Below the pieces are notes generated by a model that was given only the letters and a program-made list of their open reading frames with translations, was not told the origin of the DNA and did not search any database. From the NCBI RefSeq assembly GCF_000969825.1, contig NZ_KQ033919.1, positions 2,035,088 through 2,099,087 on the forward strand: a DNA stretch of 64,000 nucleotides, read 5' to 3'. This document shows positions 13,406 through 50,592 of this stretch, one piece after another. The translations under genes and the position numbers were made by a program. Within the stretch, counting starts at the first letter, position 1; every line of letters starts with the position of its first letter. Source of the DNA: Parabacteroides gordonii MS-1 = DSM 23371. Its GTDB lineage: Bacteria; Bacteroidota; Bacteroidia; Bacteroidales; Tannerellaceae.

Positions 13406-15385
13406 ATGGGACATTCTTGCAGTTGCAATTGCCAGGGGCATTCCGAAGAACAACATCGTTTTCCACCTTATATACTTCCGGCCGTTTCTTTCGCCATGTT
13501 GTTGACCGGGCTCTATATGCAGCATACCGATGCAGAGCTATTCAGTAAAGAGATTGTACGGTTCGCCTGGTATCTGCTGGCTTATCTGCCGGTCGGGCTT
13601 CCGGTGATCAGGGAAGCGATAGAAAGTATCCGGGAGAAAGATGTTTTCAGCGAGTTTACCCTGATGTGTATCGCTACGCTCGGCGCCTTTTACATCGGGG
13701 AATATCCGGAAGGGGTTGCCGTTATGTTATTCTATTCCATCGGAGAGATCTTTCAGGAGAATGCGGTGGCTAAAGCTCGTAAGAACATTAGTGCCCTGCT
13801 CGATGTAAGACCGGAGACGGCAACGGTGATCCATGATAACGAAGCGGTCACGTTCGCTCCCACGGATGTTCTTCCCGGAGAGATTATCGAGGTAAAGGCC
13901 GGAGAAAGGGTTCCACTCGACGGGAAATTACTCAGCGAGGTCGCAGCCTTCAATACTGCCGCCCTCACCGGTGAAAGTACGCCGCGTAATATCCACCGGG
14001 AAGAGGAAGTACTGGCGGGAATGATCGTCACAGACAAAGTGATCCGGATAGAAGTGACAAAGCCCTACAACCAGAGTGCGCTGGCCCGTATCCTCGAACT
14101 GGTGCAAAACGCATCGGAGCGAAAAGCTCCGGCAGAATTGTTTATCCGCAAATTTGCGCGTATTTATACACCGATCGTAACCGGGCTTGCTTTCCTGATC
14201 GTGCTTATCCCTTTCATCTATTCGTTGATACAGCCGGATTTTCTGTTTGTCTTCAACGACTGGCTGTACCGGGCACTGGTATTTCTCGTAATCTCCTGCC
14301 CTTGCGCACTGGTGATCAGTATTCCGCTGGGATATTTTGGAGGGATCGGGGCGGCTTCACGACAAGGTATCCTGTTTAAAGGAGGAAATTACCTGGATGC
14401 CATCACTAAAATAAACACGGTGGTATTCGATAAGACGGGGACGCTGACTAAAGGGATCTTTGAGGTACAAAGCCTGTCTGCTGCAAATCATATACCGGAA
14501 AAAGAACTGCTCCATATCATCGCTTCCGTCGAAAGCCGGAGCAATCATCCTATTGCCAAGGCGATCGTGGCATACGCCCGGGAACAACAGGTGGAAATCG
14601 ACACAACCATCGATACAACCGAACTGGCAGGCTATGGACTAAAAGCAGTAGTCGAGGGGAAAGATATATTGGTAGGTAACTCCCGTCTGCTGGACTCGGA
14701 AGGAGTTTTGTTTCATCCTAATGAAACAAGTGTTTCACCTGGAAGAAACAACTGTTTCACTAGGATGAAACAAAATTCAGATACCGTGGTTGTCTGCGCG
14801 ATCGACCGGCAATACGCCGGCCATATCCTGCTCGCCGATACGCCCAAAGAGGATGCGGTGAAAGCCATCAAACAATTAAAAGAATTAAATATTAATAACC
14901 TGGAGATATTATCGGGAGATAAACAGATAATTGTTTCTAAATTAGCTACCCGTTTGGGAATATCCCGGGCTTATGGCGACCTGCTGCCGGAAGGAAAGGT
15001 GGCTCATCTGGAAGAACTGATACGTAATCCGGAGAACCGGATCGCCTTTGTAGGCGACGGTATCAACGATGCTCCCGTCCTGGCTCTTAGCGATATCGGT
15101 ATTGCTATGGGAGGACTCGGCAGCGATGCGGCCATCGAAACGGCGGATGTCGTGATACAGACCGACCAGCCGAGCAAGGTGGCTACGGCGATCCGCATCG
15201 GGAAGTTCACACGCAACATCGTGTGGCAGAACATTTCGCTGGCATTCGGTGTCAAGCTGATCGTCCTGATCCTGGGAGCCGGAGGTATCGCTACCATGTG
15301 GGAAGCCGTTTTTGCCGATGTGGGTGTCGCTCTGCTGGCTATCCTCAACGCTGTAAGAATATTAAAGACGAATAAACCGGATTGA
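13406..15385 (+). CDS. Zn/Cd/Pb-exporting P1B-type ATPase
   Basis: This 659-residue inner-membrane pump exports divalent soft metals at the cost of ATP. Visible motifs are TGES (ALTGESTPR), the metal-site CPC at 298-300 (SCPCALVISIPLG), the phosphorylated D342 in FDKTGTLTKG, the HP motif (SNHPIAKAI) and GDGINDAP. There is no N-terminal HMA domain; instead a short Cys/His tag, MGHSCSCNCQGH, may bind metal. Residues about 434-457 are coded by a 70-bp palindromic repeat that stays in frame. The next gene, a Fur-family regulator, begins one base after the stop, so regulation by metal is likely. Confidence 0.93.
   Translation: MGHSCSCNCQGHSEEQHRFPPYILPAVSFAMLLTGLYMQHTDAELFSKEIVRFAWYLLAYLPVGLPVIREAIESIREKDVFSEFTLMCIATLGAFYIGEYPEGVAVMLFYSIGEIFQENAVAKARKNISALLDVRPETATVIHDNEAVTFAPTDVLPGEIIEVKAGERVPLDGKLLSEVAAFNTAALTGESTPRNIHREEEVLAGMIVTDKVIRIEVTKPYNQSALARILELVQNASERKAPAELFIRKFARIYTPIVTGLAFLIVLIPFIYSLIQPDFLFVFNDWLYRALVFLVISCPCALVISIPLGYFGGIGAASRQGILFKGGNYLDAITKINTVVFDKTGTLTKGIFEVQSLSAANHIPEKELLHIIASVESRSNHPIAKAIVAYAREQQVEIDTTIDTTELAGYGLKAVVEGKDILVGNSRLLDSEGVLFHPNETSVSPGRNNCFTRMKQNSDTVVVCAIDRQYAGHILLADTPKEDAVKAIKQLKELNINNLEILSGDKQIIVSKLATRLGISRAYGDLLPEGKVAHLEELIRNPENRIAFVGDGINDAPVLALSDIGIAMGGLGSDAAIETADVVIQTDQPSKVATAIRIGKFTRNIVWQNISLAFGVKLIVLILGAGGIATMWEAVFADVGVALLAILNAVRILKTNKPD
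14706..14775. repeat. In-frame array of three 22-bp palindromic units
   Basis: Outer arms TTTTGTTTCATCCTA and TAGGATGAAACAAAA are exact inverse copies (15 bp). Inside are three GTTTCA-N6-(T/A)GAAAC units, spaced exactly 22 bp apart and joined by AAGT and AACT. The whole block is read in frame within the P-type ATPase. The loops differ while the stems are kept. Confidence 0.85.
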
Positions 15386-15386
15386 T

Positions 15387-15797
15387 ATGGATGCTTATTT
15401 AGATATACTCAACAAAAGGAAGATCAAACCGACTGCCATCCGCTTGCTTGTACTAAAAGCGATGATGGAGTTTGAACGGGCTTTCAGTCTGCTCGATCTG
15501 GAAAACTATCTCGATACGGTGGATAAATCGACTGTATCACGGACGATCAACCTCTTTCTCGACCATCATCTGATCCATTGCATCGACGACGGGTCGGGCT
15601 CACTGAAGTATTCGGTCTGCGGCGAGGATTGCAGTTGTTCGATAGAGGAGTTGCATGCACACTTTTATTGCCTGAAGTGTCACAAGACCTTCTGCCTGCG
15701 GAATATTCCCGTCCCGACCGTGCAGTTGCCACGCAATTTCACCCTGGAAAGTATCAACTACGTATTAAAAGGTTGCTGCGAAGATTGCTCAAAATAG
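15387..15797 (+). CDS. Fur-family metal-responsive repressor
   Basis: The 136-residue protein has the Fur winged-helix layout: an N-terminal HTH containing KPTAIRLLVLKAM and STVSRTINLF. The C-terminal domain carries the structural-zinc cysteine pairs CLKCHKTFC and CCEDC, and a His in ELHAHFYC. It starts one base after the metal ATPase stop, so the two are co-transcribed. It probably senses Zn or a like metal and controls the ATPase through the dyad at 13341-13355. The exact metal cannot be read from sequence. Confidence 0.88.
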   Translation: MDAYLDILNKRKIKPTAIRLLVLKAMMEFERAFSLLDLENYLDTVDKSTVSRTINLFLDHHLIHCIDDGSGSLKYSVCGEDCSCSIEELHAHFYCLKCHKTFCLRNIPVPTVQLPRNFTLESINYVLKGCCEDCSK

Positions 15798-15815
15798 ACA
15801 AAGACATTATCTTTG
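15785..15815 (+). promoter_or_regulatory. cysS promoter
   Basis: A -33-like TTG (15785-15787), a 20-bp spacer and a perfect TATCTTTG (15808-15815). The promoter starts within the last codons of the Fur gene. It lets cysS be expressed apart from the metal operon. Confidence 0.6.
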
Positions 15816-15836
15816 CGGTTTAAATGATAAAAAGAT

Positions 15837-17315
15837 ATGGAACATCCGTTAAGTATTTACAACACGCTCACAAGAAAGAAGGAACAGTTTATTCCGTTGC
15901 ATGAACCACACGTAGGCATGTATGTCTGTGGACCGACGGTTTACGGCGATGCGCATCTGGGACATGCCCGTCCGGCGATTACATTCGACCTCTTGTTCCG
16001 TTATCTTACCCATATAGGATATAAAGTACGCTATGTACGCAACATAACCGATGTCGGCCACCTGGAACATGATGCCGACGACGGCGAAGACAAAGTGGCT
16101 AAAAAGGCCCGCCTAGAACAGTTGGAGCCGATGGAAGTGGTGCAGTTCTACGTGAACCGCTACCATAAGGCGATGGAAGCCCTCAATGTGCTTCCTCCCA
16201 GCATCGAACCGCATGCGTCCGGCCATATCATCGAGCAGATCGAACTGGTGAAGAAGATCCTCGACAACGGATATGCCTATGAAAGCGAAGGTTCCGTTTA
16301 CTTCGACGTGGAGAAGTACAACAAAGACCATAACTACGGTGTCCTTTCCGGCCGTAACATCGAAGATATGCTGAACACGACCCGTGCACTGGACGGTCAG
16401 GATGAAAAGCGTAACCCGATTGACTTCGCCCTCTGGAAATGTGCGCAACCGGAGCATATCATGCGCTGGCCTTCACCATGGAGCGACGGTTTCCCTGGAT
16501 GGCATTGCGAATGTACTGCGATGGGTAAGAAATATCTCGGACAGCATTTCGACATCCACGGGGGTGGCATGGACCTGATCTTCCCGCATCACGAATGCGA
16601 GATCGCGCAGGCTGTCGCTTCACAGGGGGACGATATGGTTCACTACTGGATGCACAATAACATGATCACCATCAATGGTCAGAAGATGGGTAAATCGTTG
16701 GGTAACTTCATCACGCTGGACGAGTTCTTCACAGGAAACAATAAAACGTTAAGCCAGGCTTATTCGCCCATGACGATCCGTTTCTTTATCCTGCAGGCTC
16801 ATTATCGCAGCACGGTAGACTTCAGCAACGAAGCGTTGCAAGCTGCCGAAAAGGGATTGAGCCGTCTGATGGACGCTTACAACCATCTGCAAAAGCTGAC
16901 CGCTTCGGACGCTTCGACAGTGGATGTGAAAGACCTTCGCAAGAAGTGCTACGATGCATTGAACGACGACCTGAACTCTCCGATCGTTATCTCCCATCTG
17001 TTTGATGCCGCCCGCGCCATCAACTCTGTAAAAGATGGTAAAGAGACAATCTCTGCCGAAGATCTGAAGGAACTGCAGGAAGTGTTCCATACATTCCTGT
17101 TCGATGTCTTAGGCATGAAAGACGAGGCGGCTTCCGCCGGAGGCAATAGCTACGAGACATTCGGTAAGGCGGTAGACTTGTTGCTCACCATCCGCCAGCA
17201 GGCGAAAGCCAACAAAGACTGGGCCACTTCCGACAAGATCCGTAACGAACTGACCGCTATGGGCTTCGAGATAAAGGATACCAAGGACGGGGCTGAATGG
17301 AAGTTAAGCAAATAA
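15837..17315 (+). CDS. cysS: Cysteinyl-tRNA synthetase
   Basis: CysS charges tRNA-Cys with cysteine. The 492-residue class I synthetase shows C31 of the zinc site (MYVCGPTVY), the HIGH-type motif HLGH at 40-43, further zinc ligands in WHCECTAMG and HHECEIAQ, and KMGKS at 283-287. The C-terminal DALR-type helical domain is complete. The gene has its own promoter and is followed after 4 bp by a thioesterase gene. Nothing unusual is seen. Confidence 0.97.
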
Positions 17316-17319
17316 GGTT

Positions 17320-17727
17320 ATGACAATCAACGAATTTCTTCAGGGCGACAAGTTTGCCCTGTTTGCCGGAGTAGAATTGTTAGAGACGGGCAACGGCTAT
17401 GCTAAAGCCCGTATGGAGATCAAACCGATGCATCTGAACGGCGGCGGTGTCTGTCAGGGTGGTGCTATCTTTACACTGGCCGACCTGGCCTTTGCAGCTG
17501 CCACAAACAGCCATGCACGGCTTACGTTATCCATCACTTCCAATATCAACTTCTTCAAAGCCGAAAGCAAAGGGTTTCTTTATGCCGAAGCACGCGAGGT
17601 ATTCAGCCATAAAAGGCTTGCCAACTGCGAAGTGAATATCACAAATGAAGCAGGTGAATTGATTGCCACATTCAGCGGCTCAGGCTACCGGAAAGATACG
17701 GAGTTGCCGTTTGCACCGATAGAATAA
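17320..17727 (+). CDS. PaaI-type hotdog thioesterase
   Basis: This 135-residue protein is a single hotdog domain of the PaaI / YbgC-like group, which hydrolyses acyl-CoA esters. The helix motif LNGGGVCQGGAIFTLADLA contains the Gly-rich turn and the acidic residue (Asp) usually used in catalysis. The start ATG is 4 bp after cysS, so it is likely read on the same transcript. The substrate is not known. A strong bidirectional hairpin follows. Confidence 0.85.
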   Translation: MTINEFLQGDKFALFAGVELLETGNGYAKARMEIKPMHLNGGGVCQGGAIFTLADLAFAAATNSHARLTLSITSNINFFKAESKGFLYAEAREVFSHKRLANCEVNITNEAGELIATFSGSGYRKDTELPFAPIE

Positions 17728-17738
17728 TTATATAATGA

Positions 17739-17771
17739 AAAGGCTTGTACATACAACATGTACAAGCCTTT
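17739..17771. terminator. Bidirectional terminator
   Basis: AAAGGCTTGTACAT and ATGTACAAGCCTTT pair perfectly around a 5-base loop, with T-rich sequence after it. It separates the thioesterase from the convergent toxin gene. Confidence 0.85.
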
Positions 17772-17773
17772 CT

Positions 17774-18088
17774 TTATTTCAGTCTATCCAGTAGACGCAG
17801 AGGATTTTGGCGGCAATCCCAAATCGAAGCAATATAAATATTCTTCTTTTCTATATAGTAGACAATCTTGTAATTACTTTCTATCATAGAACGGTAACAT
17901 TTCTGACGATCTCTTAATAGCTCTTCTATCCCTCCCATTTCCGGAAATATAGCCAAACGCTCTGATGCATCTACAATTGCATTAAACAACTTAACTGCCG
18001 TTGCTTCACTTTTATACTCATTATAATAAGTATATATTCCATTTAACTCATCCAGAGCAGGTTCTGTCCAAACTACTTCTGTTGCCAT
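17774..18088 (-). CDS. RelE/ParE-family toxin
   Basis: This 104-residue protein has the ParE/RelE fold pattern: WTEPALDELNGIYTYY at the N-terminus, a basic central part, and KIVYYIEKKNIYIASIWDCRQNP near the end. Members inhibit gyrase (ParE) or cut mRNA (RelE); this sequence looks more like ParE. Its start overlaps the end of the antitoxin gene by 16 bp, the common translational coupling in such pairs. Target and activity are inferred from family only. Confidence 0.82.
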   Translation of the reverse strand: MATEVVWTEPALDELNGIYTYYNEYKSEATAVKLFNAIVDASERLAIFPEMGGIEELLRDRQKCYRSMIESNYKIVYYIEKKNIYIASIWDCRQNPLRLLDRLK

Positions 18089-18339
18089 AACTTCAGTTTT
18101 TCACGAACCTGTTCGGTTGTAAAAACACGTCCTTCTGCAACTGCCTTCTCCGCCTCATCCAATCGCTTATTCACCTCTTCCAATGTATAAACGCAAGGCC
18201 GCTGCTTTTCTGCTAAGATATGCTTCTTTATCTTATTATAAGCAACTTCCAAACGAGATAATAGCTCGTCATTATCGACAGTATTGATAATATCCTGTAT
18301 GAGGTTCAGTTTACGAGCCTGTAATTCTAGTTGTGTCAT
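18073..18339 (-). CDS. Antitoxin of the ParE-type pair
   Basis: The 88-residue helical protein lies just upstream of the toxin and overlaps it by 16 bp. It has a long helical N-terminus and a C-terminal segment FTTEQVREKLKLW. That segment resembles the repeated segment of the second antitoxin in this window (56029-56328). No classical HTH is obvious, although a promoter-embedded dyad upstream suggests autoregulation by the pair. The C-terminal part probably wraps the toxin. Confidence 0.78.
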   Translation of the reverse strand: MTQLELQARKLNLIQDIINTVDNDELLSRLEVAYNKIKKHILAEKQRPCVYTLEEVNKRLDEAEKAVAEGRVFTTEQVREKLKLWQQK

Positions 18340-18374
18340 AATCTATACCCTTCCTTTAGTATTTGTAACAGAAG

Positions 18375-18418
18375 CAAATGTACATCTTTGCTCCATAAAA
18401 AGCAAATGATGTACATTT
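18375..18418 (-). promoter_or_regulatory. Toxin-antitoxin promoter with operator dyad
   Basis: On the minus strand, a -33 TTTG (18406-18403), a 20-bp spacer and a -7 TACATTTG (18382-18375) form a perfect Bacteroidetes promoter. The arms AAATGTACATC (376-386) and ATGTACATTT (409-418) form an inverted repeat across it. The pair likely represses itself here. Confidence 0.7.
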
Positions 18419-18445
18419 TTTATAGGGTGGTTCAACTGCCCTCCC

Positions 18446-20869
18446 TTACTCATACCGCAACGACCGGGCAGGTTTGCTAAGGATTGTTTTAGCAGTCTGC
18501 CAGCCTATGGTAAGCAGGGAGATCACACACAACAAAATCACCGGAACGAGGAAGAACCAGGCTTTCCAGTCGGTGCGGAAAGAGTAATGACTCAGCCAGC
18601 CGTCCATTATCCATCCTGACAGCGGAAGGGCAATAACTATCGCAATGCCGATCAGGATAAAAAACTCGCGGCCTAATTCATAGAACAATTGTAGCTTCGA
18701 CGCCCCCAATACTTTACGGATACCCATTTCACGTACACGGGTCGAGCAGGAGAACATCACCAACACCCAAAGCCCCATGCAGGAAATAAAGATCGCCAGT
18801 ATGGCAAAGAGAGCAACGATCAACCCGAATACTTCGTCCTGGCGGTATTGCTGGTCGAAGAACTGGTCGAGGAAGAAGTAGTCGTAGCTGGAGTCGGGGA
18901 AATAACGGTTCCAGACCGCTTCCGACTGTTGTACCAGTTCGCGGGGATTACCGTTTTCCATCACAACGGAGATATAACGCTGTTTCATCCAACTCAATTT
19001 ATCATGCAAGGCAAACAAGATAGGCGTATAATCTTTGTTCAGGGATTGCTGGTGATAATCCTTCACCACCCCGATGATCTGCATAGGCTGATCGACCGTC
19101 TCCACCGAAAGACGTTCCCCCAGCGCGGCGTCGGCAGAAGCAAAACCGAGTATACGGACAGCCGCTTCATTCAGGACGATATTGTAAACGTCGCCACCGA
19201 AATCCTCGGCAAAACCACGGCCGGCAACAAACTCCAGGTCGTACGCATCCAGGTAATACACGTCGCAGCTAAGCATTTCCAGCAGACGGGTCTGCTTGGT
19301 GGCATCGCTCAGGCGGACGATGGAAAGGAAGTCGGCAACCTCCGTCCCGGGAACAGCTCCGGAAACAGTTACATTCTTCACGGAAGGCAAAGACTTCAAC
19401 TCTCTCTTCATCGCGGCCAGCTTCGTAGACAGCTCCTCACAATGAGCCGGGAATTTCAGCACCAGCGTCTGATCCGTACGGACACCCAGCGAAGCACTCC
19501 GCATATATTGCAACTGAGCATATACGATCAACGTCCCGCACAGCAAAGCCAGCGACGCGGTATACTGCAACACCACCAGCACCTTGCGGGTGATCGTCGC
19601 ATTCTTCGTATGCGTAAACTTCCCTTTCAGCATCCGGATCGGCTTGATACCGGAAAGGATCGTTGCCGGATAGAAGCCGGACAAGAACACGCCCAGAGCA
19701 AAGATCAATAGCAGCATCCATCCCAGCGAGGTCGTAACCCAGACAGAGAAACCCAGGTCGCGCCCGGTCAGGTTATTGAATGCAGGCATCAGCGCTTCCA
19801 TCAATCCAATGGCGAGCACAAAAGCGATCCCGTTCGTCACCAACGACTCAAACAGGAACTGTGCCACGATCTGCCGCCGTCCGGCTCCCGAAGCGCGGCG
19901 TATGCCGATCTCCTTAGCCCGCTCCATCGAACGGGCCACCGTCATATTGATATAGTTGATCCAGGCGATACAAAGGATAGCCAGCGCCGTACAGATCAGC
20001 ACCAGCATGGAGGAGCTGTTGCCTTTCGTCTCCGGTTCGTAAGCCTTCTGGGGCGTCAGGTGGATATCGCGCAGGTTAGTCAGTTCGATAGCCCAGGTCT
20101 TATTCTTCAGGGCTTCTTCCGTCTTATACTTCTCCGCCATCGCCGGGAAGGCATCTTCCACCTGTTTCTTCAGGGCGGGCGATTTCAGCAGGACATATGA
20201 ATAGACTTCGTGGCGATACCAATATTCATCCATCCATTTCGGAAGGGTTTCATACGAAATCATCATGCTGTAACGCACATGCGAATTGATAGGCATATCC
20301 TTCATCACACCGGTCACTTCACAGGCTTCTTCACCGATATTGCTGCGGAAGATCAGTATCTTTCCGATCGGATCGGCTCCCTTGAAATATTTACGGGCGA
20401 TGCGTTCGGTAATGACCACTTTGTTCGGGCCGTCCAGACAGGTGTTCTTATCTCCCTTCAACAGATCGAAGTCGAAGAAGTTAAAGTAATTCTTTTCGCC
20501 GTAACCGATGTTTGTTTCGCGATACAGGAGCTCGTTGTATTTAACGATCTGCTCCGGATAATACTGGCTTCCTACACGGGTGTAATCCTCTATGCCGGCC
20601 AGGTTGCGTTTCATGGCTGTGGCATATCCGGCGGAGCTGCTGGCCCAGTTGTCGGTCAGTTCCCCGTTCTCATAGAAGCGGGCTTCCACGCGGAAGATAC
20701 GGTCGGCGCGGCTATGCATGTCGTCGTAGCTGTACTCGAAGGCCACGTAGGTCAGGATCAGCATGGCGGCGGCCATACCGATTGCCAGGCCGAGTATGTT
20801 GATTGCGCTGAAGCCTTTCTTCTTCGTCAGGCTGCGAAGTGCGCTATTCCAATAGTTTGATATAATCAT
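18446..20869 (-). CDS. MacB/FtsX-type ABC transporter permease (second copy)
   Basis: The 807-residue membrane protein has two tandem MacB-periplasmic / FtsX halves. TM1 lies near residues 18-40, a periplasmic domain at about 45-280, and three TM segments at about 285-430. Then comes a second TM plus periplasmic domain, with three closing TMs (about 680-800). The motif REMGIRKVLGASK is the coupling helix. It is the last gene of a five-gene operon and is paralogous over its length to the permease at 21576-23981. Such proteins act as mechanotransmitters rather than channels. Confidence 0.88.
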   Translation of the reverse strand: MIISNYWNSALRSLTKKKGFSAINILGLAIGMAAAMLILTYVAFEYSYDDMHSRADRIFRVEARFYENGELTDNWASSSAGYATAMKRNLAGIEDYTRVGSQYYPEQIVKYNELLYRETNIGYGEKNYFNFFDFDLLKGDKNTCLDGPNKVVITERIARKYFKGADPIGKILIFRSNIGEEACEVTGVMKDMPINSHVRYSMMISYETLPKWMDEYWYRHEVYSYVLLKSPALKKQVEDAFPAMAEKYKTEEALKNKTWAIELTNLRDIHLTPQKAYEPETKGNSSSMLVLICTALAILCIAWINYINMTVARSMERAKEIGIRRASGAGRRQIVAQFLFESLVTNGIAFVLAIGLMEALMPAFNNLTGRDLGFSVWVTTSLGWMLLLIFALGVFLSGFYPATILSGIKPIRMLKGKFTHTKNATITRKVLVVLQYTASLALLCGTLIVYAQLQYMRSASLGVRTDQTLVLKFPAHCEELSTKLAAMKRELKSLPSVKNVTVSGAVPGTEVADFLSIVRLSDATKQTRLLEMLSCDVYYLDAYDLEFVAGRGFAEDFGGDVYNIVLNEAAVRILGFASADAALGERLSVETVDQPMQIIGVVKDYHQQSLNKDYTPILFALHDKLSWMKQRYISVVMENGNPRELVQQSEAVWNRYFPDSSYDYFFLDQFFDQQYRQDEVFGLIVALFAILAIFISCMGLWVLVMFSCSTRVREMGIRKVLGASKLQLFYELGREFFILIGIAIVIALPLSGWIMDGWLSHYSFRTDWKAWFFLVPVILLCVISLLTIGWQTAKTILSKPARSLRYE

Positions 20870-20889
20870 GATACTAGTTTTATTGCTTG

Positions 20890-21555
20890 TTACTTAGATA
20901 CGACCCGTCCGTCCAGCAGATGGATCACACGATGGGCGTAGGTGGCATCCCGCTGCGAGTGCGTCACGATCACGATCGTTGTTCCCTGGTTATTCAGTTC
21001 GCGCAACAGCTCCATCACTTCGACGCCGTTGGTCGAGTCCAGGTTACCGGTCGGCTCATCAGCCAGGATCAGCGGACAGTCGGTCACTACGGCACGGGCA
21101 ATGGCTACACGTTGCTGCTGGCCACCCGACAACTGCTGCGGGAAATGACCAGCACGATGGGCGATGTTCATCCGTTCCAGCACTTCCATCACCTTCTTTT
21201 TGCGTTCGCTCTTCTTGCCGTTCAGATAGACAAGCGGCAACTCCACATTCTCGTAGACGGTCAGTTCGTCTATCAGGTTGAAATTCTGGAAGACAAAGCC
21301 GATATTCCCTTTACGGAAAGCGGTGAGCTGGCTTTCGCTCATCTTATCGATCTCCTTATCGTCAAAATAATATTTGCCGGAAGTAGGCGAGTCGAGTGTC
21401 CCGAGGATATTCAGCAGGGTAGATTTACCGCAACCCGAAGGCCCCATGATGGCAACAAATTCGCCTTTCTTTATCTCGAGGCTTACTTCATTCAATGCTT
21501 TGGTCTGTACGTCTTCGGTGGTGAAGATCATAGACAGGTTCTCTGTTTTAATCAT
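20890..21555 (-). CDS. ABC transporter ATPase of the efflux operon
   Basis: The 221-residue MacB/LolD-type ATPase has Walker [10 protein letters not shown], the signature LSGGQQQR, Walker [14 protein letters not shown] and the switch His in VTHSQRDA. It powers the two flanking permeases. Its place between two paralogous permease genes suggests it serves a heterodimer. Spacing to both neighbours is about 20 bp, so all are one transcript. Confidence 0.92.
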
Positions 21556-26757: not shown

Positions 26758-27089
26758 GGTGCGCATTGCGGTCGAAGCCAGAAAAAGGTAAACAAAGATG
26801 ACTCATATCTGGCAATAGGTGAAACACTCATATCATTTCCTTTTTACATGATAAAAAAGCATTAAAACCGTTCACTGTTCACCTGGCAGAGTGCGACGGC
26901 ATGCAAATCAATGGATAAGACGCTTATTTCCCAGGTGAATGGTCACTCAAAAAGGTGAATGGTTTATACGAACCTTTCACCCTCGTCTTATCCGGATTAC
27001 TTATTTTTACAGCTTATACTATTGCTCAGTAAATAAAAGGTCTGAACTGATTAAGGTCAATATTATAGCTTATTTACTTAACGACTAAC

Positions 27090-27155
27090 GTCGATAAGCT
27101 TGCTGAGCATCGTCGCAAAGCTTAACAACTAAGGTCGCAAAGCTTAACGATGGCG
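27090..27155. repeat. Three 22-bp units with AAGCTT cores
   Basis: GTCGATAAGCTT, GTCGCAAAGCTT and GTCGCAAAGCTT begin at 27090, 27112 and 27134, exactly 22 bp apart. The core is TCGnnAAGCTTnnCGA in the third unit. A weaker unit ending TACTTAACGA precedes them near 27070. Confidence 0.8.
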
Positions 27156-27268
27156 GTGTCCGGATTTATAAGTAATAACTAAAGAGTTAGTTTGCAATAG
27201 GTTTAATGGTAATGGATAATAAGAGGAAAGATACTTTTTAAGTTGCCGGATAAATACTTATATATAGG

Positions 27269-27319
27269 AAGGTGAATGGTTGGATCCAACCATTCACCTT
27301 TTTATCCAACCATTCACCC
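27269..27319. repeat. 32-bp perfect palindrome plus a half copy
   Basis: Arms AAGGTGAATGGTTGGA and TCCAACCATTCACCTT (27269-27300) form a perfect palindrome. ATCCAACCATTCACC recurs 20 bp on (27304-27318). T-rich sequence follows, so it could act as a terminator in RNA. Confidence 0.8.
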
Positions 27320-27471
27320 TGTGTATATGCTGTTAAACAAAATATAATCAATAAGTTATTATGTGTAAGGTGAAGGGTGAAAGGTTTATTGCCTGATTTT
27401 GCATGAATAGTTGCTCCGGAGCAAAGATTGCAACACTGATAGCTCAAATCGGGCAGTAAGTGAAACATTCA

Positions 27472-42591: not shown

Positions 42592-42681
42592 TTCCAGCGA
42601 TATTACAGGAATATTACTGAACGCATGAATCTATATTATTAATATATAATGCATTATCAATAAATTATAAAGAAATATTTA

Positions 42682-42727
42682 TGTAACATTCATGTAACCG
42701 GAATGCAATATCACGGCGGTTATTTTG
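42682..42727 (+). promoter_or_regulatory. Pho box and promoter of the unknown HTH-like gene
   Basis: TGTAACA (42682) and TGTAACC (42693) are 7-bp direct repeats at 11-bp spacing, the layout of a PhoB box. After exactly 20 bp comes TTATTTTG (42720-42727) as a -7-like box. The ATG follows at 42753. The same layout stands before the PiT gene. The box might also act on the divergent AEP operon. Confidence 0.7.
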
Positions 42728-42752
42728 CATAATAATTACAAACAACAAACGC

Positions 42753-43634
42753 ATGACAAACAACTTCCAGGAGTTTTATAAACGCATCGGTTATTTGCGT
42801 AGCAGTGGGGTAAAAATGAAGGAAATAGCCGACTGGATCAGCATTGCCCCGAGTGTTCTTTCTTCACTTTATACAACCGTATTGCCCGATTATTTCGAAT
42901 CGATTAAGACCAATCATCCCGACGAGGCGCTCGACCACGCATTGGCACAAGTGAACAACGTTTCCAAAAGACGGTTACTGGCCGATATGGAGAAAATGCT
43001 TACCCGGCTGGAAGAACTCGAACCGTCGCAGCAACCCGGCAGGAAAGAAAACCCTTTTATGGAACTGCTAACGGAAGAAATGCAACTGACTACCGGCAAG
43101 GTATCGAGTATCTGCGGATTATATACCAGCTACAGCCTCTCCTCTTCGTCCGATTGTCTGAAAATGGAGCCGTTTATCATCGCTTTATCCGAAAACAACG
43201 ACCATGTCCGTATCGGCCGGCTGAATGCCTACGGGGAAGCTCAATGGGGCATTGGCGTCAGCGGAGATCCCCAAAACTTCTACTGCATGTTCAGCGAAAG
43301 CCAGACTTCGCAGTTCATCCCCGTCACGCTATACTTGCAAATACCGTTCTTCAACCAGCCCAGGCAATTAAGAGGTTTATATATGGGACTGGATTACAAC
43401 CGTAATCCGGTTGCCCGGCGAATCGTCCTGATAAAGGAATCCGAAAGCACTTCCACCGACGACTTCCTGGCGATGAAAAGCGGCCTGGTCGCCAAAGAAG
43501 ATTTCACACCCGAACAGCAGGTTTATTACGACTACACCTGCCAGACCGGCGACTATATAAAAATGTGTACCGTGCCTTCCCTCCGCATGGACGAAAGCGA
43601 CCTTATAAAAGAAAAGAAGATGCTGGCACTGTAA
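42753..43634 (+). CDS. Unknown HTH-like protein under a Pho box
   Basis: I do not recognise this 293-residue protein. The N-terminus, FYKRIGYLRSSGVKMKEIAD followed by WISIAPSVLSSLY, reads like an XRE-type HTH. Residues 60-105 look helical with basic patches. The second half is beta-rich with ENNDHVRIGRLNAYGEAQWG. There is no signal peptide. It is divergent from the AEP operon and sits under a Pho box. It could be a regulator of phosphonate or phosphate uptake, but this rests on context. Confidence 0.65.
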   Translation: MTNNFQEFYKRIGYLRSSGVKMKEIADWISIAPSVLSSLYTTVLPDYFESIKTNHPDEALDHALAQVNNVSKRRLLADMEKMLTRLEELEPSQQPGRKENPFMELLTEEMQLTTGKVSSICGLYTSYSLSSSSDCLKMEPFIIALSENNDHVRIGRLNAYGEAQWGIGVSGDPQNFYCMFSESQTSQFIPVTLYLQIPFFNQPRQLRGLYMGLDYNRNPVARRIVLIKESESTSTDDFLAMKSGLVAKEDFTPEQQVYYDYTCQTGDYIKMCTVPSLRMDESDLIKEKKMLAL

Positions 43635-43783
43635 GCAACAGGCTGGAGAAAATTCAGAAAACCTGTTGCAAGGGTCACAACAGGCTGGAACAAATGCAGC
43701 AAGCCTGTTGCAATACCTGCAACTACCCGGCGGAACTTCCGCGAGCCTGTTGCATTAGTGTAACGATTCGGCGGAATTCCCGC
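43635..43783. repeat. Array of alternating dyads, 21-bp period
   Basis: Between two convergent genes, inverted pairs such as CAACAGGCT (43678)/AGCCTGTTG (43702) repeat every 42 bp. Examples start at 43636, 43678 and 43720. Dyad centres fall near 652, 673, 694, 715, 736, 757 and 777 (add 43000), so the true step is 21 bp. The last two units have GCGGAA/TTCCGC-type cores. Confidence 0.75.
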
Positions 43784-43787
43784 GAGT

Positions 43788-46043
43788 TTATTCCTTCTGG
43801 AATTTTCGGCTCACCTTAACCAGGTTGGCAGTAAATGAAACCACATTCTGTGCTTCCTGTACCATATTCAGATAAACCATGCTGACTTTCGTACTGCCGC
43901 TTTGTCCCTGGATACGTTTCAACTCACCTTTCTTTAAGGCTGTAAGCTGACTCGTCAGTGTTACGGATTCGGCCACTACATCGTCCAGACGGTGGTAATC
44001 ATTCTTTTCAATCATAGAAGCACTGCGTTTGAGGTAGGCAATGATACTTTCCGTCATCTTGCCGAAATCGCCTTTCTGCACTTCACTCAGCGGGCTGAAG
44101 TTGTTATCGACATGCTCCTTGCTCGGTTCTGTGAGGCGGCGGATACTGAAGATGATCTCGCTGGCAAAATCATTTCCCTGGTAATAGTATAATCCTTTTT
44201 CTACGGCAATATCATGTTCCAGATGGGTAACGCCCAATGTTCCGACACGTTTTACCTGCTTCAGGTGAACCTTCTTCTCTTCCACCTCATTCAATACTTT
44301 ACGTAACTCACGGAGATTTTCATTCATAAAACCGTGAACCGACCTGTCGAGTGCGTCAGCGGCAAACAATAAGACAGAATTTAATTCCTCGCGGCTGTGT
44401 TCACGGAACAAAGAAAGCGCTTCGTGGCTGTCTGTCGTATCGCGCAGTTTAGCTACTGTTGTGTTGACTTCTTCTTTCAGGGCTTCTTTCTTCAGTTTTT
44501 TCTTGTAAGCCACCTGGCTGCGGATCAGCATATAAACTGCTAGTCCGACCATTGCCGCCATTGCCGCAATTCCTCCGAAATTAATAATGAGAGCTACCAG
44601 GAAGCAGATCGTGAATGCCGCACCGGCCGTAATAAACCATCCACCGATAACGGACAGTACGCCGGTAATACGGTAAACTGCACTTTCACGTCCCCAGGCA
44701 CGGTCTGCCAGCGAACTACCCATTGCGACCATGAATGCCACATAAGTAGTAGAGAGCGGCAACTTCAACGAAGTACCCAGTGCGATCAACAATCCCGAAA
44801 GCACCACGTTTACCGAGGCACGAACCAGGTCGAAGCTGGCTCTGTCTTCCAAAATGATTTCATCATTATTAAAACGGCTGTCGATCCAGTCTTTTACCCG
44901 GGGGGGAACTACACTGAGAAGAGTGCTCGATGCATTATTGCAGGTACGCACCAGCATACGTGCAACCGGCGAAGTTCCGAAACTCTCATTACCTTCCGAC
45001 TGACGGGCCAGGTCGAGCGAAGTCTTCACCACGCTGTGTGCCTTTTTGGAAGTGGCCAGCGCGATGACCATCACTAATCCCGAACCTGTCAGGAAATACC
45101 AGGGCGTTTGTGCCGGAGCGAGCAACGATCCCATCAGGAATGTATCCGTAGTGGTCGTTCCGCCCTGCGCCATCAGGTCTATATAAGAGGAATATCCAAC
45201 GAGGGGCACACCGATAAAGTTTACAAGGTCGTTACCGGCAAAGGCCAGCGCCAGGGCAAATGTACCCATCAGGACAATTACCTTAAAGACATTTACTTTC
45301 AGCCAGTGAAGCACCTGCATCAGGATGGTGAAAAAGATAAATGCTCCCCAAACGACTTTATCCGTATTACTATATATCAGAGTCTTCAGTTCGCCGTCCA
45401 TGAATGCACTTTCCTTCAACCCTTTTATCAACATAAAATAAAGGATTGAAGTGGCTGCAAGTCCACCGAACAAGGCTATAAAATATTTTGTGTGTTTCTT
45501 ATAATTAAAGGTGAAGATAAGACGCGACAAGTATTGCACGACCGTTCCGAAAAAGAAAGCGATTGCCACCGAAAGGAAGATCGCAAGGATTACGGTAAAG
45601 GCCTTATCCGTATTCAGCAGGTTTCCCAGTTGTAAAGCTCCGTCGGAATGGGCAATCTTAACCAATGCAATAGCTACCGTACCGCCTAACAATTCAAAGA
45701 CCAGAGAGACTGTAGTGGAAGTGGGCATCCCCAATGAGTTAAAAATATCCAGCAATACCACGTCCGTCAGCATAACGGCCAGCAGGATACACATGATCTC
45801 GGAGAAAAAGAAGTGTTGCGGCTGATAAATCCCGTGCCGGGCAATATCCATCATACCGTTTGACAAGGAAGCGCCGACAAATATACCTATCGCGGCGATG
45901 ACCATAATAACTTTGAAAGATGCGGCCCTCGAACCGATTGCAGAGTTTAGAAAGTTTACTGCGTCATTACTGACTCCCACCGACAGATCGAACACCGCCA
46001 GCACAAAGAGAAAAATTACGAGGAACAGATAAAATGTTTCCAT
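43788..46043 (-). CDS. PiT-family phosphate transporter with PhoU-like tail
   Basis: This is a low-affinity inorganic phosphate:cation symporter of the PiT family, 751 residues long. The family repeat is seen twice: GVSNDAVNFLNSAIGSRAAS and, in the second half, GTSLKLPLSTTYVAFMVAMG. The C-terminal 230 residues (from about 520) are soluble, helical and PhoU/DUF47-like, so transport and regulation are fused in one chain. A Pho box and -7 box stand upstream. Its 3' end runs into the dyad array that separates it from the HTH-like gene. Confidence 0.9.
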   Translation of the reverse strand: METFYLFLVIFLFVLAVFDLSVGVSNDAVNFLNSAIGSRAASFKVIMVIAAIGIFVGASLSNGMMDIARHGIYQPQHFFFSEIMCILLAVMLTDVVLLDIFNSLGMPTSTTVSLVFELLGGTVAIALVKIAHSDGALQLGNLLNTDKAFTVILAIFLSVAIAFFFGTVVQYLSRLIFTFNYKKHTKYFIALFGGLAATSILYFMLIKGLKESAFMDGELKTLIYSNTDKVVWGAFIFFTILMQVLHWLKVNVFKVIVLMGTFALALAFAGNDLVNFIGVPLVGYSSYIDLMAQGGTTTTDTFLMGSLLAPAQTPWYFLTGSGLVMVIALATSKKAHSVVKTSLDLARQSEGNESFGTSPVARMLVRTCNNASSTLLSVVPPRVKDWIDSRFNNDEIILEDRASFDLVRASVNVVLSGLLIALGTSLKLPLSTTYVAFMVAMGSSLADRAWGRESAVYRITGVLSVIGGWFITAGAAFTICFLVALIINFGGIAAMAAMVGLAVYMLIRSQVAYKKKLKKEALKEEVNTTVAKLRDTTDSHEALSLFREHSREELNSVLLFAADALDRSVHGFMNENLRELRKVLNEVEEKKVHLKQVKRVGTLGVTHLEHDIAVEKGLYYYQGNDFASEIIFSIRRLTEPSKEHVDNNFSPLSEVQKGDFGKMTESIIAYLKRSASMIEKNDYHRLDDVVAESVTLTSQLTALKKGELKRIQGQSGSTKVSMVYLNMVQEAQNVVSFTANLVKVSRKFQKE

Positions 46044-46067
46044 AATTGATTGTTACGTATTCGACTA

Positions 46068-46124
46068 CAAAGGTCTGAAACAGATATTTCACATGTGTTA
46101 CATGGATGTTACAAACATGTTACA
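46068..46124 (-). promoter_or_regulatory. Pho box and promoter of the PiT gene
   Basis: On the plus strand TGTTACA occurs at 46096, 46107 and 46118, exactly 11 bp apart, and a weaker TGTTAAA at 46127. Read in the gene's direction these are TGTAACA repeats. After 20 bp comes the -7-like GACCTTTG (46075-46068), and the ATG lies 53 bp from the box. This matches the layout at 42682. Confidence 0.78.
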
Positions 46125-46133
46125 TCTGTTAAA

Positions 46134-46391
46134 TCGCCCTTATTATTAAAACAAAAGAGAGAGAACAAAGTTATAAGGCGAAGGACTATTTCTTTACTTA
46201 CCATACATCTTACTGATAAACTCCTATTTCGAAACATCTCCATCGACCCTGTCCCCCATTCCACAACTACAGCTGATACCAGACACCTTCTGTACCGATC
46301 AAAGAGTCACCTATTAAAATATGGAATGAAATTTGATTGGTTATCAGCTAAAAATGGCTGGTTTATGAAACAAATCATACTAGCAAATAGG
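46134..46391. other. Gene-free stretch, nothing recognised
   Basis: A 151-codon frame crosses this part on the plus strand but has no family features and an odd composition. I see no gene here. It precedes a possible small-RNA unit. Confidence 0.4.
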
Positions 46392-46483
46392 TTACATTTG
46401 CTTTTGAAAACTTATTGGGAAATAAGGGGGTCGGTTAAGTTAGAGAGGGAAAGGCTTGGAGTTAAATCCAAACTTTCCCTTTC
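46392..46483 (+). ncRNA. Possible small RNA: promoter box plus hairpin terminator
   Basis: TACATTTG (46392-46399) is a perfect -7 box. About 50-80 bp on is a strong hairpin, GGGAAAG-GC-TTGGA / TCCAA-A-CTTTCCC (46447-46479), with T-rich sequence after it. No ORF of note lies between. Together they would give an RNA of about 75-80 nt. No -33 box is seen. Confidence 0.35.
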
Positions 46484-46629
46484 ATTGTTTTTATCTCTTC
46501 CGTAAAAGTGATATTTTTTCTTCTCATCCAGTAGGGGTATTTATGGATTTCCTGTCTTATCAATAGAAATAGAATTCAAGTTTTTAGCCAATATCTTTAC
46601 AATATCACTTCGATTTTTCCATTTTTTTC

Positions 46630-46670
46630 GTTCCTTTACAGTATCAATTACTGTAAAGGAACACTTTTTT
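46630..46670 (+). terminator. Terminator-like hairpin abutting the porin start codon
   Basis: GTTCCTTTACAGTA and TACTGTAAAGGAAC pair perfectly (14 bp, 5-base loop) and are followed by TTTTTT at 46665-46670. The porin ATG is at 46672. With a -7-like TATCTTTA at 46592-46599, the hairpin would form in the leader and could stop transcription or block the start codon. Confidence 0.75.
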
Positions 46671-46671
46671 C

Positions 46672-47802
46672 ATGAAGCACATAGCAACCCTACTTCTACT
46701 GATACTATACACTTTTCCTGTTTTAGCTTCTCCGGACTCGTCGCCTATCGACTGGAAATTATCCGGCCGTTTATTCCTGGATGGCGGAGTTTATATTAAT
46801 TCCCCCTCGTCACTACATGCAGGTGCCCACATTTCGGATGTCCGGCTGGCGGCAAAAGTGCGGATCTATTCAAACTGGTACACAAAGGTCGACATCGGTT
46901 TTGCCAATAATAAGGTGACGATGAAAGATGCTTTCACCGAATATGGCAAGGATGGCAATTATTTCCGTGCCGGTTATATGCTTGGTTATTATAGCATAGA
47001 CCAGTCGACCAGCACGAACGATCTCGTATTCAATACAGCCGCCAATGTTGCCGAAACATTTTATCCGGATCGCCGGATAGGTTTGTCCTACACCCGCTCC
47101 CTTCCTTCTTATTACTTTTCAGTCGGAGCGTTTTGCGGCGATGGATTGACTTTCTCTGAAACAACCAAACCAGGTTACAATTTCTCCGGCCGTATCGTAT
47201 GGCGCCCGGTTAATTCGGACGGACAATTATTCCATATCGGAACCGGTGCTTTATTCAGAGTTCCCGACGAAGATACGGAAACAAACAACCAACAGATCCG
47301 GTTAAAGACGAAAGGTGTCACTTACATACCTTCTCCGCGAACCTTAGACCTGACCGTCGAAGATGCCGAGAACCAGGTACAATCGAACGTAGAATGCCTG
47401 TTCTTCCGCCACAAATGGTTGCTTCAAACAGAATTCTTATATACCAATATACAGCGGAAAGCCCATAAACCGTCTTACTCGGCTCATGGTGGATATATCC
47501 AGGGAGGCTTTCTGCTAAAAGGTGAAAAATATGCTTACGATGCATTGGATGCCATACCGGTCATGCCGGAAGAGCCTCACTCTATTTTACTGGCTTGCCG
47601 TTATAACTATACCAATCTGAATGATTTCAGCAGCAATACAATGGGAGGAAGCCAGCACGACTTATCGATCGGTGTCAACTACTATTTTAATAAATACATA
47701 TCTTCCCGCCTGAACTATGCACATCTTTGGATGGATAAATACTCGGCATTAGGAAAATGCGGGATTAACATGATGCAGGTGCGGTTACAGGTACGGTTCT
47801 AA
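46672..47802 (+). CDS. Phosphate-type porin (OprO/OprP-like)
   Basis: The 376-residue outer-membrane protein has a signal peptide (MKHIATLLLLILYTFPVLAS) and beta-barrel strands to the end, closing with QVRLQVRF (terminal Phe). The pattern of DGGVYINSPSSLHAGAHISDVRLAAKVRIY resembles the phosphate/pyrophosphate porin family O/P. It lies next to the PiT transporter, divergent and 629 bp away, so a role in phosphate uptake is likely. Its start codon directly follows a terminator-like hairpin. Confidence 0.8.
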   Translation: MKHIATLLLLILYTFPVLASPDSSPIDWKLSGRLFLDGGVYINSPSSLHAGAHISDVRLAAKVRIYSNWYTKVDIGFANNKVTMKDAFTEYGKDGNYFRAGYMLGYYSIDQSTSTNDLVFNTAANVAETFYPDRRIGLSYTRSLPSYYFSVGAFCGDGLTFSETTKPGYNFSGRIVWRPVNSDGQLFHIGTGALFRVPDEDTETNNQQIRLKTKGVTYIPSPRTLDLTVEDAENQVQSNVECLFFRHKWLLQTEFLYTNIQRKAHKPSYSAHGGYIQGGFLLKGEKYAYDALDAIPVMPEEPHSILLACRYNYTNLNDFSSNTMGGSQHDLSIGVNYYFNKYISSRLNYAHLWMDKYSALGKCGINMMQVRLQVRF

Positions 47803-47854
47803 AGCTAATTTCAATCTTTCATTGACAAAACAGGCCTTACATAAAATAAAAAAC

Positions 47855-47862
47855 TAACTTTG
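47855..47862 (+). promoter_or_regulatory. btuB transcript -7 box
   Basis: TAACTTTG is a perfect TAnnTTTG box, just upstream of the riboswitch. Confidence 0.5.
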
Positions 47863-47865
47863 CGC

Positions 47866-48062
47866 CCGATTTGGTGATACAGCTACATTCCGTACCTGTA
47901 TAAAAGGGAATCCGGTTAAATTCCGGAGCAGTGCCCGCTACTGTAACACCCATTCCGAAGAAAAGCATCTCTTCATGCCACTGTTTTCGTTTGCAGGAAA
48001 CGGGAAGGCGCTTTTCAGGGTGAAGCCAGGAAACCTGCCGGTCAGACATAAATAATCAAGTT
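47866..48062 (+). ncRNA. Cobalamin riboswitch
   Basis: The leader has the conserved parts of an AdoCbl-type riboswitch. These are GGGAATCCGGTT near 47907, GCAGTGCCCGCTACTGTAA (47928-47946) and the B12 box GCCAGGAAACCTGCCGGTCA (48025-48044). It lies directly before a TonB receptor gene and should lower its expression when cobalamin is plentiful. The expression platform probably lies in 48050-48105. Confidence 0.93.
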
Positions 48063-48107
48063 TTCCCGGGGTCAGGAAAGCCTTTATTAATTCTTAGAAG
48101 AACTTCG

Positions 48108-50378
48108 ATGAAAAAGAAAGTTTCACTTACGGCATTATTATGCTGTATGGTAGTATCTATGTTCGCTCAGATATCTTTGAGCGGTAAAGTTGTCAATGCC
48201 GAAACAAACGATCCGGTGGTAGGAGCCAACATCCGTATAGACCACAGCCTGGCCGGGTGCACGACCAACGGGAAAGGAGAATTCACCATCAACAACCTGC
48301 CGGAAGGCGAACATCTGCTAAGCGTCACACATGTCAGCTTCCTTCCCCAGAAATATACTGCCAATACCGGTGAAAAAGATATCCTGATCAAAATGACCGA
48401 AAGCTACATCAACCTCGGACAGGTAGTAATAACCGGAACAGGAACACATCGCCGCATGAGCAACTCGCCCGTTCCCATCCAGGTCATTACCGCCAAAGAC
48501 CTCGGTAATGCCAACGTGACCAGCCTCGAAGACGCCTTGGTCAAACTCACTCCCAACGTCACGACCATGACGAACGGCATGGGAACCACCCTGAGCCTGA
48601 ATGGGATGAACGAAGATTATATGCTACTGCTCGAAAACGGTAAACGACTGACTGGCGACGACCGTTATACCCGTATCAACATCGGGAATGTGAAACGCAT
48701 CGAGATCCTGAGCGGAGCCGCTTCCGCCCTTTATGGTAGCGACGCGATCGGCGGTGTTATCAACATCATTACCGACGATGCCAAGAATACGGTCAACGTA
48801 TCCAACTACACCCATTATACCAGCAAGGGACGGTTCAGCGAAAACATCAACGCAGACATCAATTCTGGCAAATTCTCTTCCTACACCTCCTACCAGCGCC
48901 GGGAAGCCGACAACTGGCAGGTGAACGACACCGACGAGAACGGATACAAGACCGGCCGCCCGATGTCGACAGGCTTCATATCCGACAATATCAGCCAGCG
49001 TTTTGCCTATAACGCAACCGACCGCCTCTCCTTCTATGTACGTGGTAATTACTACAATTACAACACACGCCGTCCGGAAACGGCTACTTATTTTAAAAAA
49101 GGTAAAAAGAAGGATGAAGACGGCAAACCGATCTACGAAGAGACGCAAGCTTATACTTACAACATGCTCCACGACACCTATACATACGGTGCCGGAGCCA
49201 AATACATGATCAATAAATCAGCCTATATAGATGCCGACTTCTTCGCCGACAACTATACATCCAAATACGATTATTTCCTGAAAAGCGGTGATTTCGAACG
49301 TGGAGACAAAGAAACCCGTAAGAAGACAAGATATTATAATGCCACCGTTAAAGGGATCTTCAAACCGAACAGCTGGAACAAGGTTTCTACCGGTATCGAA
49401 TATATCAACGAGAACTTCAGCAGCGAGTCGGACAATATCAGTTTCAAGAACATGTACACATTCGCCCTATTCGCACAGGATGAAATCACCATCTTAAGGG
49501 ACTTGCAGGCCGTAGTCGGTGTACGCTACCTTTATAATGAGAATTTCAAGAATTACGCGACACCGAATGTCGCCCTGATGTATAAGATCGACCACTTCAA
49601 TTTCCGTGCCTCTTACGCAACAGGCTACCGCGCACCGACACTCTCCCAGCTGTATGCCACAGACGAGGCAAAAACAGCGAGCCGTTATACCATCGGCAAC
49701 CCCAACCTGAAGCCGGAGAAAAGCAATTTCTTCTCTCTGAACGGAGAATACACCTGCTCACGCTTCTCGATCGCAGCGACCGGATTCTATAACGATATCA
49801 AAGACATGATCAATTACCGTGTGTTGAATGATGAAGAAATACAACAGATGGGATTGGGTGAGCTGCATGAACAGTTCTCGACCATCCGCCAGCGCGACAA
49901 CGTAGACCGTTCGAAGATCAAAGGGATCAGCGTCAATGCCAACTTCTATCTGGGTGCCGGACTCACCCTCGGTGGCGGTTATATCTATACCGACACCGAA
50001 GCCAAAACACTGGAACACGACAGCAAGACCAATAAGGACGTAGTTGTAATCACCCCCGTAGACAAAAGTGTGAAGAACGCCGCCAATGTACATGCCCGCT
50101 GGGATCACGACTGGAACAACTACCACCTCAACGTCAACCTGAGCGGCCATATCCAGGGCGAACGTTATTCAAGCACATACGGTTACGCCCCCAAATACCA
50201 GCAATGGGATCTGAATACACGCCACACGTTCAACCTGGATGCCTTTATCCTCGAACCGGGTATCGGTATCGAGAATATCTTCAACAAACGGGACGACCGC
50301 CCCTGGAACAGTAACTTCTCGACCATTAATCCGGGACGCGCTGTGTATGTCAGCCTGGCTGTTAAATTTAAAAAGTAA
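48108..50378 (+). CDS. btuB: TonB-dependent cobalamin receptor (BtuB-like)
   Basis: The 756-residue outer-membrane receptor imports vitamin B12 or corrinoids with TonB energy. It has a signal peptide (ending MFAQ), a carboxypeptidase-like domain (about 22-105, GKVVNAETNDPVVGANI), a plug (about 115-225, SGAASALYGSDAIGGVINII) and a 22-strand barrel ending in AVKFKK. The barrel repeats such as RASYATGYRAPTLSQLYA are typical of BtuB. The cobalamin riboswitch in its leader fixes the substrate. No other cobalamin gene follows. Confidence 0.92.
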   Translation: MKKKVSLTALLCCMVVSMFAQISLSGKVVNAETNDPVVGANIRIDHSLAGCTTNGKGEFTINNLPEGEHLLSVTHVSFLPQKYTANTGEKDILIKMTESYINLGQVVITGTGTHRRMSNSPVPIQVITAKDLGNANVTSLEDALVKLTPNVTTMTNGMGTTLSLNGMNEDYMLLLENGKRLTGDDRYTRINIGNVKRIEILSGAASALYGSDAIGGVINIITDDAKNTVNVSNYTHYTSKGRFSENINADINSGKFSSYTSYQRREADNWQVNDTDENGYKTGRPMSTGFISDNISQRFAYNATDRLSFYVRGNYYNYNTRRPETATYFKKGKKKDEDGKPIYEETQAYTYNMLHDTYTYGAGAKYMINKSAYIDADFFADNYTSKYDYFLKSGDFERGDKETRKKTRYYNATVKGIFKPNSWNKVSTGIEYINENFSSESDNISFKNMYTFALFAQDEITILRDLQAVVGVRYLYNENFKNYATPNVALMYKIDHFNFRASYATGYRAPTLSQLYATDEAKTASRYTIGNPNLKPEKSNFFSLNGEYTCSRFSIAATGFYNDIKDMINYRVLNDEEIQQMGLGELHEQFSTIRQRDNVDRSKIKGISVNANFYLGAGLTLGGGYIYTDTEAKTLEHDSKTNKDVVVITPVDKSVKNAANVHARWDHDWNNYHLNVNLSGHIQGERYSSTYGYAPKYQQWDLNTRHTFNLDAFILEPGIGIENIFNKRDDRPWNSNFSTINPGRAVYVSLAVKFKK

Positions 50379-50432
50379 GACATCAGTTTGTATAGCTACT
50401 AGGCTTAACGTCCTTTCCAACTAGACACAAAG

Positions 50433-50592
50433 TAGGGACTAAGTAATTCAAAGCTCACTATCCGTTATTGCCAGGGTGTACAGGATAACCGACTAGGGTG
50501 TACACCTTAGCAAATCAACCTGTACACCTTGTTCCAACAACCTGTACAGGGTAGCAATAAGGAGTGGTAGGCTTTGAATTATTTAGTCCCTA
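50433..50592. repeat. 160-bp element with terminal inverted repeats and a 22-bp core array
   Basis: Ends TAGGGACTAAGTAATTCAAA and its inverse (50571-50592) agree over 22 bp with one mismatch, and weakly over about 40 bp. Inside, TGTACA recurs at 50477, 50499, 50521 and 50543, exactly 22 bp apart. The four cores are GGTGTACAGG, GGTGTACACC, CCTGTACACC and CCTGTACAGG. Confidence 0.9.

Follow-up and report, generated by a model that had tools for sequence, protein, structure and literature searches.

Arrays of short repeats whose cores differ from one array to the next, but whose step is 22 bp, exist beyond chance in the intergenic DNA of Parabacteroides. A claim of this kind, for a common step among unlike cores, had been made in a preliminary description of the window, the whole stretch of 64,000 nucleotides from Parabacteroides gordonii MS-1 = DSM 23371 (genome G000) that was analysed, and it survives a scan in which no core was fixed. 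We sampled 20 stretches of 20 kb from G000 (approximately 6% of the genome) and likewise from a relative (G033), masked ORFs of at least 90 aa mechanically, counted the 7-mers recurring at each spacing and compared the counts with 200 shuffles. Over the 400 kb of G000, 36 intergenic 7-mer pairs were found at spacing 22 (shuffle mean 3.0, maximum 11), and G033 had 57 (mean 3.1, maximum 11). Pairs were also found at spacings 23 (32 in G000, 18 in G033), 44 (53 and 32) and 46 (14 and 17). Two other Parabacteroides genomes, each sampled over 200 kb, yielded 39 pairs at 22 (G012; shuffle mean 1.7) and 23 pairs at 22 (G014). The G014 sample also presented larger peaks at 14 and 21 and weaker ones at 28 and 35, which likely come from a separate 7-bp repeat. 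Tandem TTGACAG/CTGTCAA repeats with a 7-bp step were seen in both the G014 and G033 samples (e.g., L238:13572). In 100 kb of Bacteroides fragilis, we counted 15 pairs at spacing 22 and 49 at spacing 23; a single array (L353, n 86) accounts for most of the 23/46 signal. Another B. fragilis array (L351) has the geometry of family A, described below, with a TTTAC core.

The step was absent from the controls. No pair at 22 or 23 was found in 200 kb of Escherichia coli K-12 (one rRNA operon being counted as intergenic), and 140 kb from each of two other families of the order had none at 22, or one, in G021, when short gaps were kept. In a third family (G020), 16 pairs at 22 were left uncounted, as they belong to three AT-rich repeat stretches that are not dyads by eye. 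The coding DNA of the G000 and G033 samples had no peak at 22 above the three-base rhythm. Counted as separate places, a weaker measure than pairs, the step occurred at 12 places in G000, 10 in G033, 9 in G012 and 4 in G014 (maxima of 100 shuffles: 7, 10, 5 and 6), exceeding every shuffle in G000 and G012 but not in G033 and G014. A stricter triple test, also with no fixed core, retained 4 places in G000 and 7 in G033, with 22 at the top of spacings 7 to 60. The step is thus a property of the intergenic DNA of this lineage. Shuffled sequence was the test proposed in the preliminary description, and it did not reproduce the pair counts at 22. A common step among different cores was recovered in G000, G033, G012 and G014, with thinner evidence in B. 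fragilis. The range of 20 to 22 bp given for it did not hold: instead of a smear over 20 to 22, we found a step of 22 and two further classes, one at 23 and one at about 41-42.

Table 1. Positions within the window of the arrays and of the features that contain or surround them.
Feature	Positions	Strand	Remarks
Heavy-metal-translocating P-type ATPase gene, 659 aa	13406..15385	+	family A array forms ~14 extra residues
Family A array, GTTTCA/TGAAAC	14706..14775	.	three GTTTC-N8-GAAAC units at step 22, joined by 4-bp linkers, in frame in the ATPase gene
Dispersed repeat, 623 bp	26842..27464	.	holds the GGTGAATGG and AAGCTT arrays; 98% identical copy elsewhere
GGTGAATGG pair 20 bp apart and imperfect inverted copy	26934..26981	.	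exact copies at 26934 and 26954
AAGCTT x3, step 22	27096..27145	.	cores at 27096, 27118 and 27140
32-bp palindrome with GGTGAATGG core	27269..27300	.	within the 623-bp repeat
GCAAC/GTTGC dyad array	43635..43790	.	arms alternately 30 and 12 bp apart, period 42, gap of convergent genes
Outer inverted repeat around the family E array	50435..50591	.	predicted as one long hairpin
Family E array, TGTACA x4, step 22	50477..50548	.	cores at 50477, 50499, 50521 and 50543

All arrays cited in the preliminary description exist, four in gene-free gaps and one within a gene, as had been reported. Three have the 22-bp step attributed to them. The GTTTCA/TGAAAC array (14710-14771, inside an ORF) has units at 14710, 14732 and 14754, and is a near-perfect global palindrome; AAGCTT and TGTACA recur as three and four cores. 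The GGTGAATGG array, for which a step of 20 was claimed, is weaker than stated, with one exact pair at that step and a third copy that is imperfect and inverted; an additional exact copy lies at 27271. The step of 21 given for GTTGCA/TGCAAC was wrong: the arms (43635, 43665, 43677 [imperfect], 43707, 43719 and 43749) have a period of 42, only the dyad centres being 21 apart, and TRF assigns a period of 41. Moreover, the GGTGAATGG and AAGCTT arrays both lie within a single 623-bp repeat, leaving four independent cases of the proposed single design and not five. Besides its 98% identical copy, this repeat has five more related places at E ≤ 2e-9. It is missing from the corresponding place in P. 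goldsteinii (G035) and G033, where the junction is not clean. GGTGAATGG repeats occur in a G033 gap (L192:18575) that is empty of them in G000, suggesting movement or loss of this core as well. An Rfam scan of the window returned a cobalamin riboswitch (47855-48055) as its sole match. The riboswitch precedes a gene for a TonB-dependent receptor (48108-50378), whose matches to B12 receptor models stay under the cut-offs of those models; the TGTACA array comes after this gene.

Arrays recovered by step alone bear, by eye, various cores, for example TTGTGC/GCACAA, CTGCC/GGCAG and GATAATTATC, or TACTTA/TAAGTA and ATCGCGGACC among those with a 23-bp step. In 40 arrays chosen by their direct repeats, inverted 5-mers numbered 184 against 51.6 expected from a null in which columns were permuted and the period kept, and 17 arrays reached p < 0.05. 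Control arrays of other periods had 80 against 38.6, with 5 of 38 at p < 0.05; three of these five have a period of 33 and overlap 22-bp arrays. Inverted repeats are thus somewhat enriched at other periods as well, which weakens the case for dyads. A circular test of the whole unit (6/40 arrays at p < 0.05 vs. 0/21 controls) was judged too strict, and the local test was used instead. We rejected a single arm and loop geometry for all families, the distances between inverted 5-mers differing from array to array. Because arm and loop lengths differ among families, the shared design comes down to a step and a dyad, and nothing finer.

Two families were studied closely. For family A, G000 gave 62 BLAST matches (both strands, E ≤ 10) and 68 + 65 pattern matches; the reversed pattern gave none in G000 and three across all 59 genomes. 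Pattern matches occurred in 22 of the 59 genomes; the genus of the window, with 35 genomes in the set, supplied 21 of these 22, and there were 72 matches in G035 and 53 in G012. We located 26 arrays in G000, where loci were fetched for part of the matches only, and 16 in G035. Three units were present in 20/26 and 12/16 of them, respectively, and all 95 steps equalled 22. A seven-unit array of GTTTCCCCGGCAAGAAACCG type in G035 (L287:3388-3537), an exception to the three-unit rule, occupies the same gap region as a three-unit array of G000. The units are not interchangeable, since a GTTCC/GGAAC variant is concentrated in the middle one (9/11 in three-unit arrays of G000, 3/4 in G035). According to mechanical ORFs, the 26 G000 arrays comprised one in a gene, 14 between tandem genes, five between divergent genes, five between convergent genes and one undecided, and 12 of the 14 tandem copies were closer to the 3' end of the upstream gene (p = 0.006). 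Family E has at least eight copies; seven of the eight carry four cores at step 22, and one has three with a degenerate fourth.

Comparisons among species used one genome per species, with exchanged arrays and decayed copies read by eye. Eight of the 16 family A arrays of G035 had flank matches to G000 arrays, of which five align cleanly; three pairs were excluded for a match in one flank, unmatched sequence beside the array and a different array in the gap. In the five pairs, arms were identical at 160/160 positions, loops at 98/128, linkers at 36/44 and flanks at 326/400, the arm figure being biased by a choice of arrays that rested on the arms in both genomes. The gap that holds the GTTGCA array in G000 holds a 22-bp GTTTC array in G035 and G033 and none in G004; among eight named relatives, an array was seen by eye at this gap only in P. 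goldsteinii. Conversely, in the gap of one G000 family A array (L210:17318), G035 has TTTCCG/CGGAAA arms at spacings of 11-12 and 29-30, with a period of about 41. Such swaps offer a test of replacement against re-insertion. These two could reflect chance re-use of gaps. In G004, a four-unit 23-bp array with TGACG/CGTCA arms lies just after a gene (L195:675-751) and is absent in G000, G035 and G033. Orientation was scored in two cases, one of them among the five family A pairs, and both were inverted. The family A array of L025/L277 is inverted in place (middle block 24/26 inverted vs. 18/26 direct) between flanks of the same orientation, and the 23-bp array of L210 is inverted in G033 (score 63 vs. 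45 direct). Sites for comparison of target duplications were found, with junctions too diverged between species to be read. As for the conservation among relatives that had been proposed as a test, the sites themselves are often not kept, whereas the step and arms are kept in pairs that can be aligned; two species have decayed copies.

The copy in the ATPase gene is a clean test of DNA-level against protein-level constraint, and a better one than the intergenic pairs because the site was found by gene homology. The insert was absent in 12 of the 13 relatives first compared and present in G004, and it was later found in G035 and G033. Between two species, third codon positions in the arms were identical at 10/10 sites, compared with 402/639 (62.9%) in the rest of the gene (P = 0.0097). 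The loops change residues between species and the arms do not. At the G035 site, global palindromy is lost and the arms are retained. In G033 and G004, the insert has decayed, so the constraint on arms is not universal. The in-gene copy is possibly tolerated because its ~14 extra residues do not shift the reading frame and would probably sit in a surface loop.

The observations comprise dispersed copies in one genome, gains and losses between species, a position near the 3' ends of genes, two inversions in place and arms that are kept while loops change. We favour, at about even confidence, the reading that the arrays form a class of short dispersed palindromic elements with many families, resembling REP/BIME, RPE and MITE sequences in behaviour. 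Each family would consist of dyad units with a constant length (22 bp, 23 bp or, in a further class, 41-42 bp), typically three in family A and four in family E. A putative protein recognising the dyad or hairpin formed by the arms would make and place the copies; the arms, constant next to changing loops, are suggested as the recognised part. Such a machine would set the length of the unit and not its sequence, so that new cores could arise and the step stay. We found no transposase tied to the arrays. Counting against mobility, the loops of family A are much more diverse than would be expected of copies recently made from a single master, and identical arms between species point to selection or gene conversion and not to mobility alone.

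Alternatively, the arms could be sites for sequence-specific DNA-binding proteins, with one protein per core family and neighbouring dimers about two helical turns apart in a chromosome-organising or regulatory role. The arms identical in 5/5 aligned pairs amid changed loops and flanks fit this explanation, as do the unchanged third codon positions in the ATPase arms and a weak pyrimidine-to-purine pattern in family A loops, like that of operator centres. Family A arms are also identical to the TGTTTCA/TGAAACA arms of the ParB site parS and equal its half-site. We nevertheless regard protein binding as unlikely, if a serious possibility: one genome holds many unlike cores, arrays are gained and lost among species, 14 of the 35 genomes of the genus (some of them incomplete) have no family A match, and gene orientation gives no rule except 3' proximity. 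The preliminary description had invoked, as one of two options, a protein or complex that reads one face of the helix. This is unsupported, as 22-, 23- and 41-42-bp classes coexist and 23-bp arrays would drift round the helix. parS is the 16-bp TGTTYCACGTGRAACA site, with 2 bp between its arms where family A has 6, and to our knowledge it does not occur as three sites at a fixed step. No TGTTYCACGTGRAACA match was present in the fetched sequence, which is part of the genome, and with its different half-site spacing family A was not retained as parS/ParB.

Proximity to the upstream 3' end in 12/14 tandem copies would also suit arrays acting as RNA, in hairpins that end or stabilise transcripts, and the predicted hairpins are strong (-40.4 kcal/mol for the 14706 array, -83.8 kcal/mol for the 50477 array). 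However, among the 26 G000 copies five are placed between divergent genes and one within a gene, the GTTCC/GGAAC variants have no strand preference for a possible G-U pair (4 vs. 3, by eye), and the ATPase site of G035 keeps its arms after losing global palindromy. An RNA role therefore seems improbable to us. Slightly less probable still is an origin with neither element nor reader, in which palindromes of roughly constant length come from template switching at stalled forks and are multiplied by slippage. It would account for first and last loops that are reverse complements at 7 or more of 8 bases (8/20 three-unit arrays in G000, permutation p = 0.005; 3/12 in G035, p = 0.13) and for the 43635 array, which occurs once in the genome. 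It would not readily account for identical cores at unrelated places, for a unit number that is narrow with one seven-unit exception in G035, or for the unequal positions of units, with the variant in the middle.

Beyond the dispersed palindromic elements that we favour, what is left unexplained is a constant length across families without common letters. A single length-ruler machine of the Bacteroidales, producing or maintaining palindromic arrays with units of 22 or 23 (and 41-42) bp whatever their letters and rewriting slots with new cores over time, would cover Parabacteroides, B. fragilis and the 22-, 23- and 41-nt repeats of Porphyromonas gingivalis. We consider it rather doubtful. If one protein or copying process does impose the step, it shapes the intergenic DNA of common gut bacteria. 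A class that keeps its step and not its letters is invisible to repeat catalogues built on sequence similarity, and we found no description of step-sharing palindromes in Bacteroides or Parabacteroides among the open-access literature matches listed.

Known elements share several of these traits. According to the available parts of two studies (PMC2817692, PMC3733652), REP and BIME sequences are short, many-copy intergenic palindromes that are regularly spaced and alternate in orientation within composite arrays, as here, and CGTC-tagged REPs have been reported from Bacteroidetes among other phyla. REPs are, however, sorted by GTAG/CGTC tags, and their RAYTs are flanked by their own REPs, whereas three of the five genomes compared here have no RAYT: profile PF01797 matched once in G000 and once in G033 and gave no match in G035, G012 or G014. 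A RAYT is thus unlikely to be the mover, being missing even in G035 and G012, which are rich in family A. The single RAYT-type genes of G000 and G033 (L244/L245) are flanked by other palindromes, probably classic REPs, and by eye no 22-bp array lies within the 700 to 1000 bases around them. Rickettsia palindromic elements likewise comprise several palindromic families and insert in frame into genes, but the available text describes them as ~150 bp long and reported mainly for gene insertions (PMC10969869). With a unit of 22 bp and one gene-borne array among the 26 of G000, ours do not have in-gene insertion as their usual state, and we do not count them as RPEs.

The nearest parallel in unit length comes from P. 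gingivalis, for which the available part of one study gives tandem repeats of 41 nt (PgRS), 23 nt (the BrickBuilt MITE) and 22 nt (strain W83) (PMC4596501). Default nucleotide searches located BrickBuilt in P. gingivalis, homologues were found in P. gulae, and the portion available does not propose a length common to unlike cores (PMC4596501). BrickBuilt has 1 to 22.8 units, a leader, a tail and IS5-like terminal repeats (PMC4596501), whereas families A and E each show a typical number of units, and we saw no ends of this kind in them. With a step of 22 and narrow unit numbers, against 23 nt and variable numbers, neither family was assigned to BrickBuilt. By description, and not by sequence, BrickBuilt and MITE464/PgRS nonetheless resemble the present arrays: they are dispersed and intergenic, are predicted to form long stem loops and are built of units of the same lengths (PMC4596501).
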